From: Alphaproteobacteria bacterium
Lineage (GTDB): Bacteria; Pseudomonadota; Alphaproteobacteria; CAAHEQ01; UBA3637
Assembly (NCBI GenBank): GCA_017962565.1
Contig: JAGCVC010000018.1
Span: 1-64,000 of the forward strand
Direction of reading: 5' to 3'
Length of the DNA: 64,000 nucleotides
This document shows, piece by piece, positions 6,210 to 13,115 of the stretch (position 1 is the stretch's first letter; each line of letters begins with the position of its first letter). The position numbers and the translations under genes were made by a program. The notes under the pieces are model-generated. The model saw nothing but the letters and a program-made list of their open reading frames with translations, made no database searches and was not told the origin of the DNA.

Positions 6210-7291
6210 AAAAATATATTTTAAAACGATTGCTTTTAATCCCATTGACTTTGTTTGGCATTATGCTGATCAATTTTATGTTTATTCAGTTGGCTCCCGG
6301 TGGTCCTGTGGAACAAATGATGATGAAGATGGAAGGTAGTGCGGTATCGGCTACGGCTCGTATCTCTGGTGCTTCTAGCGGTGCGGCCGAAAGTGTTGCC
6401 AGTAATTCGAAATATCAAGGGGCACAAGGTGTTCGCGAAGAATTAAAAAAACAATTGGAACATGAATTCGGTTTTGATAAACCTATACATGTGCGTTTTC
6501 TGTTGATGATGAAAAAGTATTTAGTGTTTGATTTCGGAAAAAGTTTTTATCGCGACAAAAAGGTAACGGATTTGATATTGGAAAAAATGCCGGTTTCTAT
6601 ATCTTTGGGCGTTTTTTCGACTTTGATTATTTACTTAATTTCAATTCCGCTCGGTATTCGAAAAGCACAAAAGGACGGTACAAAGTTTGATGTTTGGACC
6701 AGTTGGCTTGTCATTATCGGATATGCTATTCCATCATTTTTATTTGCTATCTTTCTGGTTGTTTTATTTGCCGGCGGACGTTATTTAAATTGGTTTCCTT
6801 TGCGTGGTTTGGTTTCTGATAATTGGGATTCTTTGTCTTGGTTTGGAAAGATTACGGACTATTTATGGCACATGGCGTTACCTGTTTTTGCAATGGTAAT
6901 AGGTGGTTTTGCCGGTCTGACGATGCTGACAAAAAATTCATTTTTGGATGAAATGCACAAAAATTATACTATAACGGCAGCTGCTAAAGGTTTAACATCA
7001 ACGCAAGTTTTATATCGGCATGTTTTCCGTAACGCAATGTTGATTATTGTTGCGGGATTTCCGGCTGTTTTGGTCGGTATGCTTTTTACCGGATCGGTTT
7101 TAATAGAAGTAATTTTCTCTTTGGACGGATTGGGGTTGCTTGGTTTTGAATCGGTCATGAACAGGGATTATCCGGTTATTTTCGGTACACTTTATATGTT
7201 TGCGTTATTGGGATTGGTTTTGAATTTAATCAGCGATTTAACTTATCGTTTGATCGATCCCCGGATCGATTTTGAACGGAGGCAATCATGA
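6206..7291 (+). CDS. yejB: Peptide ABC transporter permease YejB-like
   Basis: A 361-residue permease starting MKKYILKRLLLIPLTLFGIMLINF, the usual DppB/YejB beginning. It keeps the YejB hallmark of a long periplasmic loop after the first helix (about 35-90, with EFGFDKPIHVRF) and the EAA motif AAAKGLTSTQVLYRHVFRNA that contacts the ATPase. Six membrane segments are expected. The start at 6206 overlaps the yejA stop (ATGA); an in-frame upstream GTG would only add four residues. It overlaps the next gene by 4 bases. Confidence 0.93.
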   Translation: MKKYILKRLLLIPLTLFGIMLINFMFIQLAPGGPVEQMMMKMEGSAVSATARISGASSGAAESVASNSKYQGAQGVREELKKQLEHEFGFDKPIHVRFLLMMKKYLVFDFGKSFYRDKKVTDLILEKMPVSISLGVFSTLIIYLISIPLGIRKAQKDGTKFDVWTSWLVIIGYAIPSFLFAIFLVVLFAGGRYLNWFPLRGLVSDNWDSLSWFGKITDYLWHMALPVFAMVIGGFAGLTMLTKNSFLDEMHKNYTITAAAKGLTSTQVLYRHVFRNAMLIIVAGFPAVLVGMLFTGSVLIEVIFSLDGLGLLGFESVMNRDYPVIFGTLYMFALLGLVLNLISDLTYRLIDPRIDFERRQS

Positions 7292-9828
7292 TGAGGGCTT
7301 TTCGTTATCGTTTTGAAATTTTCAAAAAGCAACGCAGGGCTTTTTATGCGCTGATTATATTTATCGGTATTTTTATTTTATCTTTGTTGGCTCCGATTAT
7401 CGCTAATGATAAGCCGTTGTTTATTTGGTACAAAGGAAATGCCTATTTTCCGATTGTGACGGATTATACAGATGAATTCTTTGGCGGTTCTTTACCAACC
7501 TATGCGGACTACAAAGATGCTTATACCATTGAGCAAATCAATCAAAACGGCTTTATGGTTATGCCGCCGATTGAATTTTCTTATGATACCATCAATTATG
7601 ATTTACAGGAACCGTCACCATCCAGACCGACACTTCAAAATTGGTTGGGAACGGATGATCAAGGGCGTGATGTTCTGGCGCGTTTGCTTTATGGTATTCG
7701 CATCAGTATTTTGTTCGGTTTAATTTTGACTTTAATATCTTCGATCATAGGTATTTTTGTGGGCGCTATACAAGGTTATTTTGGCGGAAAAACGGACTTA
7801 CTTATGCAACGTTTTTTGGAAATTTGGGGCAGCCTGCCGCAAATGTTTATTTTGATTATCGTATCCAGCATTTTGTTACCCGGTTTTTGGACATTGTTGA
7901 TTGTTCTGTTATTATTCAGTTGGACGGGATTGGTTGGCGTTGTTCGTGCTGAGTTCTTGCGTGGGCGCAATTTTGAATATGTCAAAGCAGCACATGCTTT
8001 GGGCGTTTCCGATATGCGTATTATTCTTCGCCACATTTTACCGAATGCTTTGGTTGCTTCTGTAACATACATTCCGTTTATTTTGTCATCAGGAATAGTT
8101 GCTTTGACCGCTTTGGACTTTTTGGGTTTCGGTATGCCGGCGGGCTCACCTTCTATGGGTGAATTAGTGCGGCAAGGTAAAGAAAACATCAATGCACCAT
8201 GGTTGGGATTGTCGGCCTTTGTTTCAATGGCAACTTTGTTGATATGTTTGGTCTTTGTTGGGGAAGGTGTCCGGTATGCTTTTGATCCAAGAAGAAAGGC
8301 TTTGGTAAAACCTTGTCATAAAGCATTTACGGATTTGCCGCAATCAAAAATGTTGTTGAGTGTTCGTCATTTATCCGTTTCTTTGGGTAAAAGAAAAATT
8401 GTAGAAAATGTTTCATTTGATATTCAAAAAGGTGAAACGGTTGCTTTGGTTGGTGCCAGTGGCAGCGGTAAATCTTTGACAGCATTATCCATTTTGGGAT
8501 TGGTGCCGGATGCTTCTTTGCGTGGCAGCATCCAATTGGACGGACAAGAGTTAATCGGTGCACCGTCAAATGTAATGCGTCAAATCAGGGGACGCAAAAT
8601 TGCTTTGATTTTCCAAGAGCCGATGACGGCTTTAAATCCGTTGCATAAGATGAAAAAACAAATTGCCGAAGTTATGAAAATTCACTTTAAAAAAGCATCT
8701 GAAAAGCGAATTTTTGAATTGATGGATTTGGTTGGTTTAACTGATGATAAAGAACGTATTTTAAACAGTTATCCGCATCAATTATCTGGTGGTCAAAGGC
8801 AACGCGTGTTAATTGCTATGGCTTTGGCGGGGGATCCGGAATTGTTGATTGCTGATGAGCCGACAACGGCTTTGGATGTTTCTTTACAAAAACAGGTGTT
8901 GGATTTATTAAAAGATTTACAAAAAAAGTTGGGATTATCCATTTTGTTTATCAGTCATGATACAGCCGTTGTTTCTTATATGACAGATCATATTTACCGC
9001 ATGGAACATGGGCGCATAATGCCATTTATTTTGAAGAAAAATAATGCGCTGTTGGCTCACAAAAAAATATATTCGGAAAAACCGCTTTTACAAGTTAAAA
9101 ATTTAAGTGTTCGTTATGGTAATTTAATCGCTTTAAAACCGTTAAACTTTAAATTATTTCCAGCACGGACTTTGGCAATAGTCGGCATGAGTGGTAGCGG
9201 TAAAACCAGTTTGGCAATGGGATTGTTGAGATTAACAAAAGCAACCGGTAAAGCGTATTTGCAAGGTAAAGAAATTTTATCTTTATCTTCAAAGAAATTT
9301 AATCAGTTACGCAGTCAGATCCAGATTGTTTTCCAAGATCCGTTTTCTTCACTCAATCCACGTATGACGGTATCTCAAATAGTGGCAGAAGGTTTAAATG
9401 TTCATGCACCGCAATTGAAGTTTAAAGAAAAGCAAAAATTGGTGCGTGATGCGTTGGCACAAGTTGACTTAAAAAGCAATTTATTGAATCGTTATCCTCA
9501 TCAATTATCCGGCGGTCAAAGACAACGTGTAGCAATTGCCCGTGCTTTAATCTTAAAACCAAAAGTATTGATTTTGGATGAACCGACAAGCGCTTTGGAT
9601 GAAAAAAACAGGCAAGCGGTTTTGTCTTTGTTGAATCGAATCCGTCAAAAAACAAAAGTGGCCTATTTGTTGATTACGCACGATATGAATGTTGTTCGTC
9701 AAATGGCCGATGATGTGTTGGTTTTAAAGGAAGGTTCATGTGTCGAAGTCAGTGATATGCGTAAAATCTTTGCCGATCCCAAAGATGATTACACTAAAAA
9801 ATTGCTGGAAGCATCTTTGATAAATTAA
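7288..9828 (+). CDS. YejE-YejF fusion: permease plus tandem ABC ATPase
   Basis: One 846-residue chain carries what is normally two proteins. Residues about 1-340 are a YejE-type permease (first helix 17-40, the DQGRDVLARLLYG motif, EAA loop AAHALGVSDMRIILRHILPNA, and the typical ending GEGVRYAFDPRRK). After a linker of about 15 residues, two ABC ATPase domains follow as in YejF: Walker A GASGSGKS near 390 and GMSGSGKT near 635, each with an LSGGQRQR signature. It completes the importer with YejA and YejB. The ATG at 7288 follows GGAGG. An internal ATG at codon 355 marks where a separate yejF would start, so a shorter ATPase product cannot be excluded. Confidence 0.93.
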   Translation: MMRAFRYRFEIFKKQRRAFYALIIFIGIFILSLLAPIIANDKPLFIWYKGNAYFPIVTDYTDEFFGGSLPTYADYKDAYTIEQINQNGFMVMPPIEFSYDTINYDLQEPSPSRPTLQNWLGTDDQGRDVLARLLYGIRISILFGLILTLISSIIGIFVGAIQGYFGGKTDLLMQRFLEIWGSLPQMFILIIVSSILLPGFWTLLIVLLLFSWTGLVGVVRAEFLRGRNFEYVKAAHALGVSDMRIILRHILPNALVASVTYIPFILSSGIVALTALDFLGFGMPAGSPSMGELVRQGKENINAPWLGLSAFVSMATLLICLVFVGEGVRYAFDPRRKALVKPCHKAFTDLPQSKMLLSVRHLSVSLGKRKIVENVSFDIQKGETVALVGASGSGKSLTALSILGLVPDASLRGSIQLDGQELIGAPSNVMRQIRGRKIALIFQEPMTALNPLHKMKKQIAEVMKIHFKKASEKRIFELMDLVGLTDDKERILNSYPHQLSGGQRQRVLIAMALAGDPELLIADEPTTALDVSLQKQVLDLLKDLQKKLGLSILFISHDTAVVSYMTDHIYRMEHGRIMPFILKKNNALLAHKKIYSEKPLLQVKNLSVRYGNLIALKPLNFKLFPARTLAIVGMSGSGKTSLAMGLLRLTKATGKAYLQGKEILSLSSKKFNQLRSQIQIVFQDPFSSLNPRMTVSQIVAEGLNVHAPQLKFKEKQKLVRDALAQVDLKSNLLNRYPHQLSGGQRQRVAIARALILKPKVLILDEPTSALDEKNRQAVLSLLNRIRQKTKVAYLLITHDMNVVRQMADDVLVLKEGSCVEVSDMRKIFADPKDDYTKKLLEASLIN

Positions 9829-9836
9829 AATTTTTC

Positions 9837-9865
9837 TTGCATTTGTGTAAAAGATTCGATATACT
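9837..9865 (+). promoter_or_regulatory. Promoter of the ileS leader and ileS
   Basis: TTGCAT (9837-9842), 17-bp spacer, TATACT (9860-9865). The predicted start (about 9872-9873) falls on the ATG of the leader peptide. A GANTC site (GATTC, 9853-9857) lies in the spacer. Confidence 0.7.
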
Positions 9866-9872
9866 GCAAAGT

Positions 9873-9920
9873 ATGAAAAAGATAAACAACATAATTATTA
9901 CCATCCGAATTAGTGGCTAA
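9873..9920 (+). CDS. Isoleucine-rich leader peptide of ileS (15 aa)
   Basis: A 16-codon frame encodes MKKINNIIITIRISG followed by TAA. Six of 15 residues are Ile (4, 7, 8, 9, 11, 13), using ATA, ATT and ATC codons, directly upstream of the isoleucyl-tRNA synthetase gene. The ATG sits 7-8 bases after the -10 element, so the message probably begins at or next to the AUG with no ribosome site, as known for the rhizobial trpL leader. Stalling at Ile codons when charged tRNA is scarce would alter the folding of the RNA that follows. The stop codon lies in the loop of a hairpin. Confidence 0.7.
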   Translation: MKKINNIIITIRISG

Positions 9921-9929
9921 CAGCCGCTA
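9911..9929 (+). promoter_or_regulatory. Hairpin overlapping the end of the ileS leader peptide
   Basis: TAGTGGC pairs with GCCGCTA (one G-U pair) around the loop TAACA, which holds the leader stop codon. AAGATAA (9879-9885), inside the leader, is a perfect complement of TTATCTT (9938-9944), giving an outer helix. No U-run follows, so this is not an ordinary intrinsic terminator. The segment 9927-9964 has no G at all but several C, a composition compatible with Rho loading. Confidence 0.5.
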
Positions 9930-9998
9930 TCATCCTATTATCTTAAAACAATTTCCTAAATATAAGCAAAAAACAGTAAATGAAGAAAGAGAAAAACT

Positions 9999-12900
9999 AT
10001 GTCTGAAAAAGAAAAATTTTATCCTGAATTAGATGCCAAAAACGATGTCGTTGCACGTGAAAAGATGACCATCGAATTTTGGCGTCAAAATCGTACGTTT
10101 GAAAAATCTGTTGAACGCAGAAAAGGCGCTGATGAATTCGTATTTTATGATGGCCCTCCGTTTGCAAACGGTATGCCGCACTACGGACATATTATGATTT
10201 CTTATGTGAAAGATATTGTTGCACGTTATCAAACTATGCGCGGCAAAAGGGTCGAACGTCGTTTGGGTTGGGACTGCCACGGATTGCCGGCTGAAATGTC
10301 TGCCGAAAAGCAATTGGGTGTTTCCGGTCATAAAGCAATTGAAGAATACGGTGTTGCCAAATTTAATGAATTTTGCCGTCAAGACGTTTTAAAATATTCG
10401 GGTATTTGGAAAGATACTTTCCGCCGTATCGGTCGTTGGGTGGATTTTGATGCTGAATATAAAACAATGGATCTGCCTTTTATGGAATCCGTTATCCATA
10501 ACTTTAAAGAATTGTATGATAAAGGATTGGTTTATGAAGATTATCGCGTTTTACCATATTCTTGGGCAGCTCAAACTCCGTTATCAAACTTTGAGGTCAA
10601 TCAAGGTTACCGTGATAAAACAGATACAGCGATTACTGTTTTATTTAAATTGGAAGACGGTCGGCATTTGCTTGTATGGACGACAACGCCGTGGACTTTA
10701 CCGTCAAACTTGATGATTGCTGTTGGTGCGGATATTGATTATTCCGTGATGCAGGAAGGTGATGAAAAATACATTTTGGCATCTGCTTTGAAAGACAGAT
10801 ATAAGCAACAACTTGCCAATGCAACCGAAGTCGGTGTTGTTAAAGGTCGTGATTTGGTTGGATTATCTTACGAACCGATGTTCCCTTATTTCAAACATTT
10901 GAAAGAAAAGGGCGCATTTAAAGTATTGTCCGGTGAATTTGTTTCTACCGAAGACGGTACAGGTATTGTCCATATTGCTCCGGGTTTTGGTCAAGACGAC
11001 TTTGATGTTTGTCGTTCCTATAACAAAGATTTTCCGGTTGTTTGTCCTGTTGATGAAGGTGGTTGCTTTACAGCTGAAGTTCCGGATTATCAAGGCAAAC
11101 AGGTTTTTGAAGTCAATGATTTAGTTTTAGCTTGGCTGAAAGAAAATCGCAAATTGGTTAAACGCGAACAAATTACGCATACATATCCGTATTGTTGGCG
11201 AACAGATACACCGTTGATTTACAAAGCTATGTCCAGTTGGTTTGTAAAAGTTTCCGATTTTAATGATGAAATGGTCAAGTTAAATGAAAACATTACTTGG
11301 ATTCCGGAACATATCAAACATGGTCGTTTTGGTAAATGGTTGGAAGGTGCAAGAGATTGGTCTATTTCCCGTAATCGTTTCTGGGGAACACCGATTCCTG
11401 TTTGGAAATCCGATAATCCGAAGTTCCCGCGTATAGATGTTTTTGGCTCTATTGCTGAAATTAAAGAAAAAACGGGCATTGAAGTTAAGGATTTGCATAA
11501 ACCATATATTGACGAAGTTGTTTATCCGAATCCGGACGATCCAAGTGGTCAAACAATGATGCGTCGTGTTTCTGACGTATTCGATTGTTGGTTTGAATCG
11601 GGTTCAATGCCTTACGGACAAATTCATTATCCGTTTGAAAATAAAGAATGGTTTGAAAAACATTTCCCGGCTGACTTTATTGTCGAAGCTTTGGATCAAA
11701 CGCGCGGTTGGTTCTACACTTTGCATGTTTTGGGAACAGCTTTGCATCATACAAATGCATTTAAAACATGTGTTTGTACGGGGCTGATTATGGCCGAAGA
11801 CGGACAAAAGCTGTCGAAGCGTTTAAAGAATTATCCGGATCACAATTTAATTTTGGATTCGATGGGCTCAGATGCATTGCGTTGGTGGTTAATGGCTTCC
11901 CCGATTGTTAAAGGCGGTACGGTCAATGTTGATATGAAGGGTGTTGAAATTTCAAAAGCGGCCCGTAAAGCTTTGATCCCGTTGTGGAACGCATTTTATT
12001 TCTTCTGCCTGTATGCAAATGCAGAAGGAATTAAAGCCGAAAAGACTTCTGACTCGCATGATGTTTTGGATAAATACATTTTATCAAAATTGAAAAAATT
12101 AGGTCAGAAGTTAACCAAATTAATGGATGGTTATGAATTGGCGGCAGCTTGTGCGGAATGTTCTGATTTCTTGGAAATTTTGAACAACTGGTATATTCGT
12201 CGTTCACGGGCTCGTTTCTGGGATGGAACAGATAAAGATGCATTTAATACTTTATTCACAGTGTTGGTTGAAGTTTCCAGATTGATGGCCCCTTTGATGC
12301 CGTTTATGACTGAATATGTCTATCAATCATTAACCGGTGAAGAATCTGTTCATTTGACAGATTGGGTTGAAAATTTACCAATTGCCGATAATAATGAATT
12401 GATCGAAAAAATGGATAAAGTACGTGCAATTTGCTCAACAGCAAAATCAGTGCGAGAAGACGCAAAATTACGTAACCGTTTGCCGTTGAAGAGTATGACT
12501 ATTGCCGGTGTTCATGAAAGTGATTTGGCAGAGTTTACAGACTTAATCAAAGACGAAATCAATGTTAAAGAAGTTGCTTTTGCAGACGATGTTTTGGCAG
12601 TTGCTAATAAATTCTTATATTTGAAAACACCTTTAATCGGTAAACGTTTGGGCGCTTTCATGAAAGATATTATGGCAGCTAGCAAAACAGATGCTTGGCA
12701 TGTTCAAGATGACGGAACCTTATCCATAGCAGGACAAACTTTGAATGCTGACGAATTTGAATTGCGGTTGGTTTTGAAGGAAAGCTTAAAAGGACTGGCT
12801 TTGCCTGACAATACGGCTGTTGTTCAATTGGATACACAAGTTTATCCTGAATTGGAAAAAGAAGGTATTGCGCGTGATTTTGTTCGTATGGTTCAAAACT

Positions 12901-13115
12901 TACGTAAAGAAAAGAACTTGGACGTTTCAGACAGAATAGTTTTAAGTTATGAAGCTTCGACAGATTTAATCAATCAAGCTTTGGAACTGCATAAAAATTA
13001 CATTATGGAACAAGTTTTGGCTTTGAACATTATATCTAATCAAGCTTTGGACAATGCACCTGTTTCGGAAGAAATTGGTGACGGTAATGTCAAAGTTGAT
13101 TTGGAAAAAGCTTAG
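9999..13115 (+). CDS. ileS: Isoleucyl-tRNA synthetase, eukaryote-like (type 2)
   Basis: A 1038-residue class I synthetase that charges tRNA-Ile. The HIGH-type motif is HYGH within DGPPFANGMPHYGHI, followed by GWDCHGLPAE, and the KMSKR loop reads KLSKR in EDGQKLSKRLKNYPDH. These forms, plus RWVDFD..YKTMD and TPLSNFE, belong to the type 2 clade shared with eukaryotes, mupirocin-resistant IleS2 and some alphaproteobacteria, not to the usual type 1 with its C-terminal zinc finger. An editing domain (about 190-380) and anticodon-binding domain (about 690-850) are present. A 120-base leader with a leader peptide suggests control by Ile supply. GAAGAAAGAG is the ribosome site. Confidence 0.96.
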   Translation: MSEKEKFYPELDAKNDVVAREKMTIEFWRQNRTFEKSVERRKGADEFVFYDGPPFANGMPHYGHIMISYVKDIVARYQTMRGKRVERRLGWDCHGLPAEMSAEKQLGVSGHKAIEEYGVAKFNEFCRQDVLKYSGIWKDTFRRIGRWVDFDAEYKTMDLPFMESVIHNFKELYDKGLVYEDYRVLPYSWAAQTPLSNFEVNQGYRDKTDTAITVLFKLEDGRHLLVWTTTPWTLPSNLMIAVGADIDYSVMQEGDEKYILASALKDRYKQQLANATEVGVVKGRDLVGLSYEPMFPYFKHLKEKGAFKVLSGEFVSTEDGTGIVHIAPGFGQDDFDVCRSYNKDFPVVCPVDEGGCFTAEVPDYQGKQVFEVNDLVLAWLKENRKLVKREQITHTYPYCWRTDTPLIYKAMSSWFVKVSDFNDEMVKLNENITWIPEHIKHGRFGKWLEGARDWSISRNRFWGTPIPVWKSDNPKFPRIDVFGSIAEIKEKTGIEVKDLHKPYIDEVVYPNPDDPSGQTMMRRVSDVFDCWFESGSMPYGQIHYPFENKEWFEKHFPADFIVEALDQTRGWFYTLHVLGTALHHTNAFKTCVCTGLIMAEDGQKLSKRLKNYPDHNLILDSMGSDALRWWLMASPIVKGGTVNVDMKGVEISKAARKALIPLWNAFYFFCLYANAEGIKAEKTSDSHDVLDKYILSKLKKLGQKLTKLMDGYELAAACAECSDFLEILNNWYIRRSRARFWDGTDKDAFNTLFTVLVEVSRLMAPLMPFMTEYVYQSLTGEESVHLTDWVENLPIADNNELIEKMDKVRAICSTAKSVREDAKLRNRLPLKSMTIAGVHESDLAEFTDLIKDEINVKEVAFADDVLAVANKFLYLKTPLIGKRLGAFMKDIMAASKTDAWHVQDDGTLSIAGQTLNADEFELRLVLKESLKGLALPDNTAVVQLDTQVYPELEKEGIARDFVRMVQNLRKEKNLDVSDRIVLSYEASTDLINQALELHKNYIMEQVLALNIISNQALDNAPVSEEIGDGNVKVDLEKA

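Follow-up and report, generated by a model that had tools for sequence, protein, structure and literature searches.

The window analyzed here, a stretch of 64,000 nucleotides (positions 1 to 64,000 of contig JAGCVC010000018.1, assembly GCA_017962565.1), carries a gene for isoleucyl-tRNA synthetase (ileS) that is separated from the stop codon of a yej-type transporter gene at 9828 by an intergenic gap of 170 nt, ending at 9999. The gap and the gene behind it contain the following features:

9837 to 9842, + strand: -35 element TTGCAT, read from the sequence; mostly TTGATT in relatives, which were compared by eye
9860 to 9865, + strand: -10 element TATACT, read from the sequence; TATAAC or TATAAG in relatives
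9873 to 9920, + strand: leader ORF MKKINNIIITIRISG-stop, 15 codons with six Ile, probably leaderless; read from the sequence, with five homologues in the family
9879 to 9885, + strand: 5' arm of the outer helix P1, AAGATAA; predicted fold and swap test
9911 to 9929, + strand: hairpin P2 with the leader stop codon (9918 to 9920) in and next to its loop; from the fold, with compensatory changes and UAA to UGA in relatives
9927 to 9965, + strand: G-free, C-containing linker, a candidate Rho loading region; from the sequence and the linker composition in relatives
9938 to 9944, + strand: 3' arm of P1, TTATCTT; predicted fold and swap test
9982 to 9991, + strand: purine-rich ribosome binding region of ileS, read from the sequence and, together with the start codon, predicted to be 67% unpaired
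9999 to 13115, + strand: ileS, isoleucyl-tRNA synthetase of 1038 aa; TIGR00392 with 879.7 bits (cut-off 621.4)

The transporter gene upstream of ileS is an 846-aa ORF (7288 to 9828) that appears to be a fusion, in which a single reading frame encodes both a YejE-like permease and a YejF-like ATPase. The synthetase itself (9999 to 13115) reaches 711 bits with the MupA profile, which is less than the cut-off of that profile and in line with an IleRS of the eukaryote-like type.

The two promoter elements are spaced by 17 nt, and the leader ATG at 9873 sits 7 nt past TATACT. The -35 element of the window matches at 3 of 6 positions only, so that the promoter was missed by a simple promoter scan; the layout with TTGATT as -35 recurs among relatives. 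P2 is composed of TAGTGGCT-AAC-AGCCGCTA, thus of 8 bp closed by an AAC loop (-10.5 kcal/mol), with the UAA codon (9918 to 9920) in and next to the loop. The initial annotation of this DNA, made from the letters alone, had described a 15-residue frame with six Ile codons upstream of ileS that starts 7 to 8 bases past a good -10 element, and had proposed that the transcript probably begins at its AUG, that the stop codon lies in the loop of the hairpin at 9911 to 9929, and that a G-free, C-containing stretch takes the place of a U-run terminator. The frame was found again at 9873 to 9920, the stop codon is in the loop as described, and 9927 to 9965 hold no G; no U-run or intrinsic terminator was found between leader and ileS in the window. 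The promoter, whose layout recurs in relatives, predicts a transcript start at or near the leader AUG.

To judge conservation, ileS was looked for in sampled genomes of the window's own family, some assemblies of which had no usable ileS start. A leader of the window's kind, here called type A, is present in six species of three genera, the window included. The peptides read MKKINNIIITIRISG in the window and MTKMYSMNNIIIIARISG, MKEISNHIIIRRIRN, MIKVMNNIIIIRRISG and MMMKLIYKHFFLIRIRG in four relatives, while the sixth ends in QKIILIRRIRG, with four Ile near its end; common to all six is a C-terminal R-I-[SR]-[GN]-stop, and in one species (G007) the leader is down to three Ile codons. The P2 stems are compensated between species (GUGGCU/AGCCGC, AGGAACU/AGUUCCU, CGUGGC/GCCGCG), and the stop codon stays in or at the loop despite a switch from UAA to UGA, in the five further species as in the window. 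The promoters have a TATAAC-like box and mostly TTGATT as -35, and the leader AUG follows the -10 box by 5 to 10 nt in all six species, the promoter-consistent AUG having been taken where several are in frame; this spacing predicts a leaderless mRNA. Linkers contain 0 to 7% G and 15 to 24% C in all six. In an IleRS tree, the five type A enzymes included form one clade (98/98). The other readable genera of the family mostly show a TTGATT-type promoter without such a leader. In one species (L002/L087, genome G008), the linker segment AACGCCACGATTTA, of which the 3' arm of the hairpin with the stop codon is a part, occurs a second time immediately ahead of the ribosome site of ileS, a possible competing pairing seen in this species only.

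Analogous leaders occur in another order. A scan for IleRS yielded 80 loci with record titles, mostly from uncultured Alphaproteobacteria of gut samples, and 57 of them carry what we call a type B leader: 51 distinct peptides of 13 to 15 codons with 38% Ile. Every one of them terminates in Pro-stop, which is preceded by Ile-Ile in almost all cases, and the stop codon occupies the loop of an AUCCC(C)...GGGGAU hairpin. Leaders of this type were found in nearly every genus of the order and also in a further family (L198). The core pattern is present in 120 of 153 genomes of the order, as a single copy in 119, against 1 hit for a reversed-pattern control; at 29 of 30 loci checked it lies directly upstream of ileS, 223 to 257 nt before the IleRS motif DGPPFANG, the remaining locus running to the contig end. 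Several genomes without the exact core have retained the stop codon, either in the form of UGA or in combination with a longer loop. No such leader was seen in the genomes read from one genus of the order, and the nesting of this genus among leader-bearing rows of the IleRS tree points to loss. Within the window's own order, the 14-nt type B core was not seen. At one locus of the window's family that has no leader (L095, genome G021), the gene preceding ileS seems to end in ...LFRIIP-stop, about 150 nt upstream of ileS, with ATTATCCCCTAGGGGGGAT, almost the same letters as the type B core; this may be a chance terminator or the relic of a leader fused to a gene.

The outer helix P1 was assessed by an alignment-independent swap test, in which the own arms of a species are compared with arms exchanged between species. 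For type B, where P1 surrounds the leader start codon (mean unpaired probability 0.20), own arms pair with -11.1 kcal/mol versus -7.6 kcal/mol for exchanged ones (p < 5e-5). A covariance model from an automatic alignment of type B comprised only 4 base pairs because P1 changes register between species, which is why the swap test was used instead. For type A, the same test gave p = 0.049 with six sequences, and we consider P1 the weakest item of what the window sequence suggests. The helix AAGATAA/TTATCTT of the initial annotation thus has its place in the predicted fold and a strong counterpart in type B, but it is weak in the window's own type. The type B linker contains 4.3% G compared with 14.9% in other genes of the same loci, ileS excluded (Mann-Whitney p = 2e-21, a value that counts related species, which are not independent, separately). 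The frame signal of type B is modest, the synonymous share of single changes amounting to 36% in frame versus 21 to 22% in the other frames; coding selection on the short frame would accordingly seem only modestly visible apart from the Ile content and the conservation of the stop. Taken together, the comparison between species establishes, at the level of sequence, the leader ORF, the hairpin with the stop codon in its loop, the distance to the promoter, the low G content of the linker and the association with ileS.

A family of genomes of about 0.9 Mb represents a third lineage, in which ileS is preceded by M-x4-I-I-I-I-(K/R/Q/E)-stop. This type C leader has 10 codons with four Ile (one leader is a codon shorter), and nearly all of 30 loci read, for which an alignment and a consensus fold were also drawn on, have stems rich in GC as well as a terminator whose U-run counts about six; judged by its sequence, it is a textbook attenuator layout for ileS. 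Since the type C enzymes lie on a long separate branch of the IleRS tree, control of ileS by a leader peptide probably has more than one origin. Conservation in close relatives, on which the initial annotation had made its reading depend, was thus found: five more species of the family have the leader, and two other lineages have analogous ones. For 18 ileS-like loci elsewhere in the class that are more distant, a simple scan for upstream ORFs gave scattered, chance-like matches only. In the window genome, neither the valS-like nor the leuS-like gene was found to have an upstream ORF rich in the cognate residue. At several type C loci (L219, L246, L258), the leader lies directly behind a tRNA-Thr(CGU) gene, and tRNA and ileS may share a transcript.

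A search for ilvC gave no family match in the window genome and was positive in all 14 control genomes, and the window genome probably cannot make isoleucine; the absence of ilvC makes ileS a plausible target of isoleucine-dependent control. A rho gene is present. We favor, with a probability of roughly two in three, the reading that the window leader attenuates ileS in cis and senses the charging of tRNA-Ile via translation of the leader peptide, with termination, most likely by Rho, as its output. The sensor half of this reading is well supported by the comparative data. For the output step, termination is favored and would probably be Rho dependent, since the linker is G-poor and C-retaining in both type A and type B and the genome has rho. 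As far as a composition test can tell, the linker has the excess of C over G to be expected of an unstructured Rho region between leader and ileS; its paucity of G would also fit a mere requirement for RNA without structure.

From this anatomy we infer leaderless translation of the ORF, ribosome stalling, the sense in which control acts and the role of Rho in termination, as follows. The transcript would start at or next to the leader AUG, so that the ribosome begins at the 5' end. With ample charged tRNA-Ile, the ribosome would reach the stop codon and depart, P2 would fold, probably within P1, and the ribosome-free, G-poor linker would let transcription end before ileS, most likely via Rho. 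When Ile-tRNA is short, the ribosome would stall on the Ile codons and block P1, and P2 as well in the case of late codons, such that ileS is made. By footprint reasoning, a ribosome stalled on codons 4 to 9 would sit on the 5' arm of P1, and one stalled on codon 13 would also cover the 5' arm of P2. It speaks against the attenuator model that a stalled ribosome would not cover the linker and that the anatomy gives no account of how stalling stops Rho. In the predicted folds of six type A and 57 type B leaders, no conserved antiterminator that would create two exclusive folds stood out. The weak P1 of the window's family, the modest frame signal of type B and the species with three Ile codons count against the model as well. 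More tentatively, and at somewhat less than even odds, we envisage an architecture in which the stop codon of a (leaderless) ORF lies in an apical loop and ribosome occupancy gates the leader without antiterminator or U-run, which would stem from an ancestor of two orders of gut Alphaproteobacteria, would have been lost in several genera and would sense isoleucine via ileS. With respect to the attenuation by charged tRNA-Ile proposed in the initial annotation, frame, promoter, hairpin and the relation to ileS were seen to recur, while the output step has to be deduced; of the two outputs it had offered, Rho-dependent termination agrees with the lack of a U-run and the conserved G-poor linker, whereas translational control in its simple form, the hiding of the ileS site by a 3' arm, did not find support.

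The last point bears on the possibility that the same sensor has another output, in that the leader acts on how the ileS mRNA is translated or how stable it is, a ribosome stalled at the 5' end protecting the message or exposing a ribosome site. Leaders of the erm type provide a precedent. The predicted leaderless AUG, the window without a terminator, and the type B start codon that lies within P1 with its low mean unpaired probability would all suit such an output. According to the review PMC9031893, leaderless Cys-codon ORFs regulate downstream translation in M. smegmatis. However, the idea that the 3' arm masks the ribosome site of ileS gained no support: in type B, own pairs of arm and site (-5.2 kcal/mol) are weaker than swapped ones (-6.2 kcal/mol), and the type A ileS start is predicted to be 44 to 77% unpaired in the full leader. 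Coupling by reinitiation across 73 to 81 nt would also seem long. On balance, we regard an output at the level of translation or stability as rather unlikely. Termination could alternatively be intrinsic, P2 nested in P1 together with the pyrimidine-rich tract acting as a weak terminator whose action a stalled ribosome prevents. Such a view gains from type C with its true terminator before ileS and from type B, where six or more T fall into an 8-nt window no farther than 18 nt from P2 at 39 of 57 loci, and five or more T follow P2 directly at 30 of 57; some type B loci may have a weak intrinsic terminator. The window, however, has no terminator-like site, the tract after the type A P2 is mixed, and the U-rich part precedes the 3' arm of P1 in many type B loci, which renders the proposal improbable.

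Two further explanations concern the sensor and the reality of the leader. TnaC senses tryptophan with a terminal Pro-stop, and one might suspect that here, too, isoleucine is sensed by the growing peptide or by the hairpin's stop codon, instead of by slow decoding of Ile codons. The uniform Pro-stop ends of type B and the likewise conserved end of type A fit an arrest peptide, but types A and C end differently (RISG, RIRN; IIIIK) and have no arrest motif in common, the hairpin itself dictates some of the conserved letters, and an aminoacyl-tRNA synthetase gene would be expected to answer to charging and not to the free amino acid; we thus consider an arrest peptide very improbable. Taken alone, the window leader is only modestly unlikely to be of chance origin, as an ORF of 10 to 31 codons with at least six Ile arose in 0.5%, and a hairpin as long as P2 in 11%, of dinucleotide shuffles of the 170-nt gap, and most other genera of the family are without the leader. 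Its significance comes from conservation across species: with six species conserving it under compensatory changes and with analogous leaders in two other lineages, it can hardly be a chance ORF in an AT-rich promoter region next to an unrelated hairpin.

Ribosome-mediated attenuation of transcription is classical for amino-acid operons such as trp, his and ilv, and among aminoacyl-tRNA synthetase genes for pheST. The window leader shares with these systems a short ORF rich in the cognate codon (6 of 15 codons are Ile) directly before the regulated gene and a hairpin right behind the codons; it differs by the lack of a U-run terminator, by the stop codon in the hairpin loop and by the predicted leaderless start, and no conserved antiterminator was seen. 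The type C leader fits the classical form. We did not file the window leader as a classical attenuator because the terminator was looked for and not found; we read it as working like a ribosome-mediated attenuator, albeit one whose AUG would be leaderless and which lacks a classical terminator. The leaderless trpL of rhizobia, which the initial annotation had mentioned, can be substantiated for S. meliloti, where the attenuator RNA (rnTrpL/peTrpL) begins with the AUG of the 14-codon leader (PMC7298713). The window leader would resemble it as an alphaproteobacterial attenuator with an RNA starting at the leader AUG, as predicted from the promoter, while S. meliloti trpL has Trp codons, acts on trpE(G) and possesses a true terminator. 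In mycobacteria, leaderless polycysteine ORFs attenuate downstream expression (Canestrari et al. 2020, as cited in PMC9031893). They resemble the window leader as leaderless short ORFs with cognate codons and differ in belonging to Cys genes, to Actinobacteria and to a translational output. These ORFs are not known to have a conserved hairpin with the stop codon in its loop.

In the papers found, RNA control of ileS takes the form of the T-box, present upstream of the gene in Actinobacteria (PMC1262725). As proposed for the window leader, it couples ileS to the charging of tRNA-Ile by means of RNA, but through direct sensing of the tRNA without a leader peptide. A T-box at the window was rejected, with no Rfam match above chance in 9500 to 10300 and none at gathering score in eight related loci. 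Leader-peptide control of synthetase genes has been predicted for leuS and trpS in Streptomyces (PMC1262725) and for hisS in bacilli (PMC2965389, where ileS is not mentioned); these cases differ from the window in the synthetase, the phylum and the presence of terminators. No description of an ileS leader peptide was found in the freely accessible literature searched. The present leaders would add ileS to the genes under leader-peptide control, in uncultured gut bacteria and with counterparts in more than 100 related species. The compact layout with the stop codon in the loop recurs in two orders, while ileS has the textbook form in a third lineage. Different attenuator designs for a single enzyme can thus be compared as they occur in nature, and it can be tested clearly whether a ribosome that occupies a short ORF is able to gate transcription without an antiterminator. 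No Rfam family matches the window leader or covers the ileS leader, such that annotation of these genomes misses it. Locus L062 (JAISVX010000003.1), titled 'Lactobacillaceae bacterium', carries an alphaproteobacterial-type ileS with a type B leader, so that this assembly looks mislabelled.
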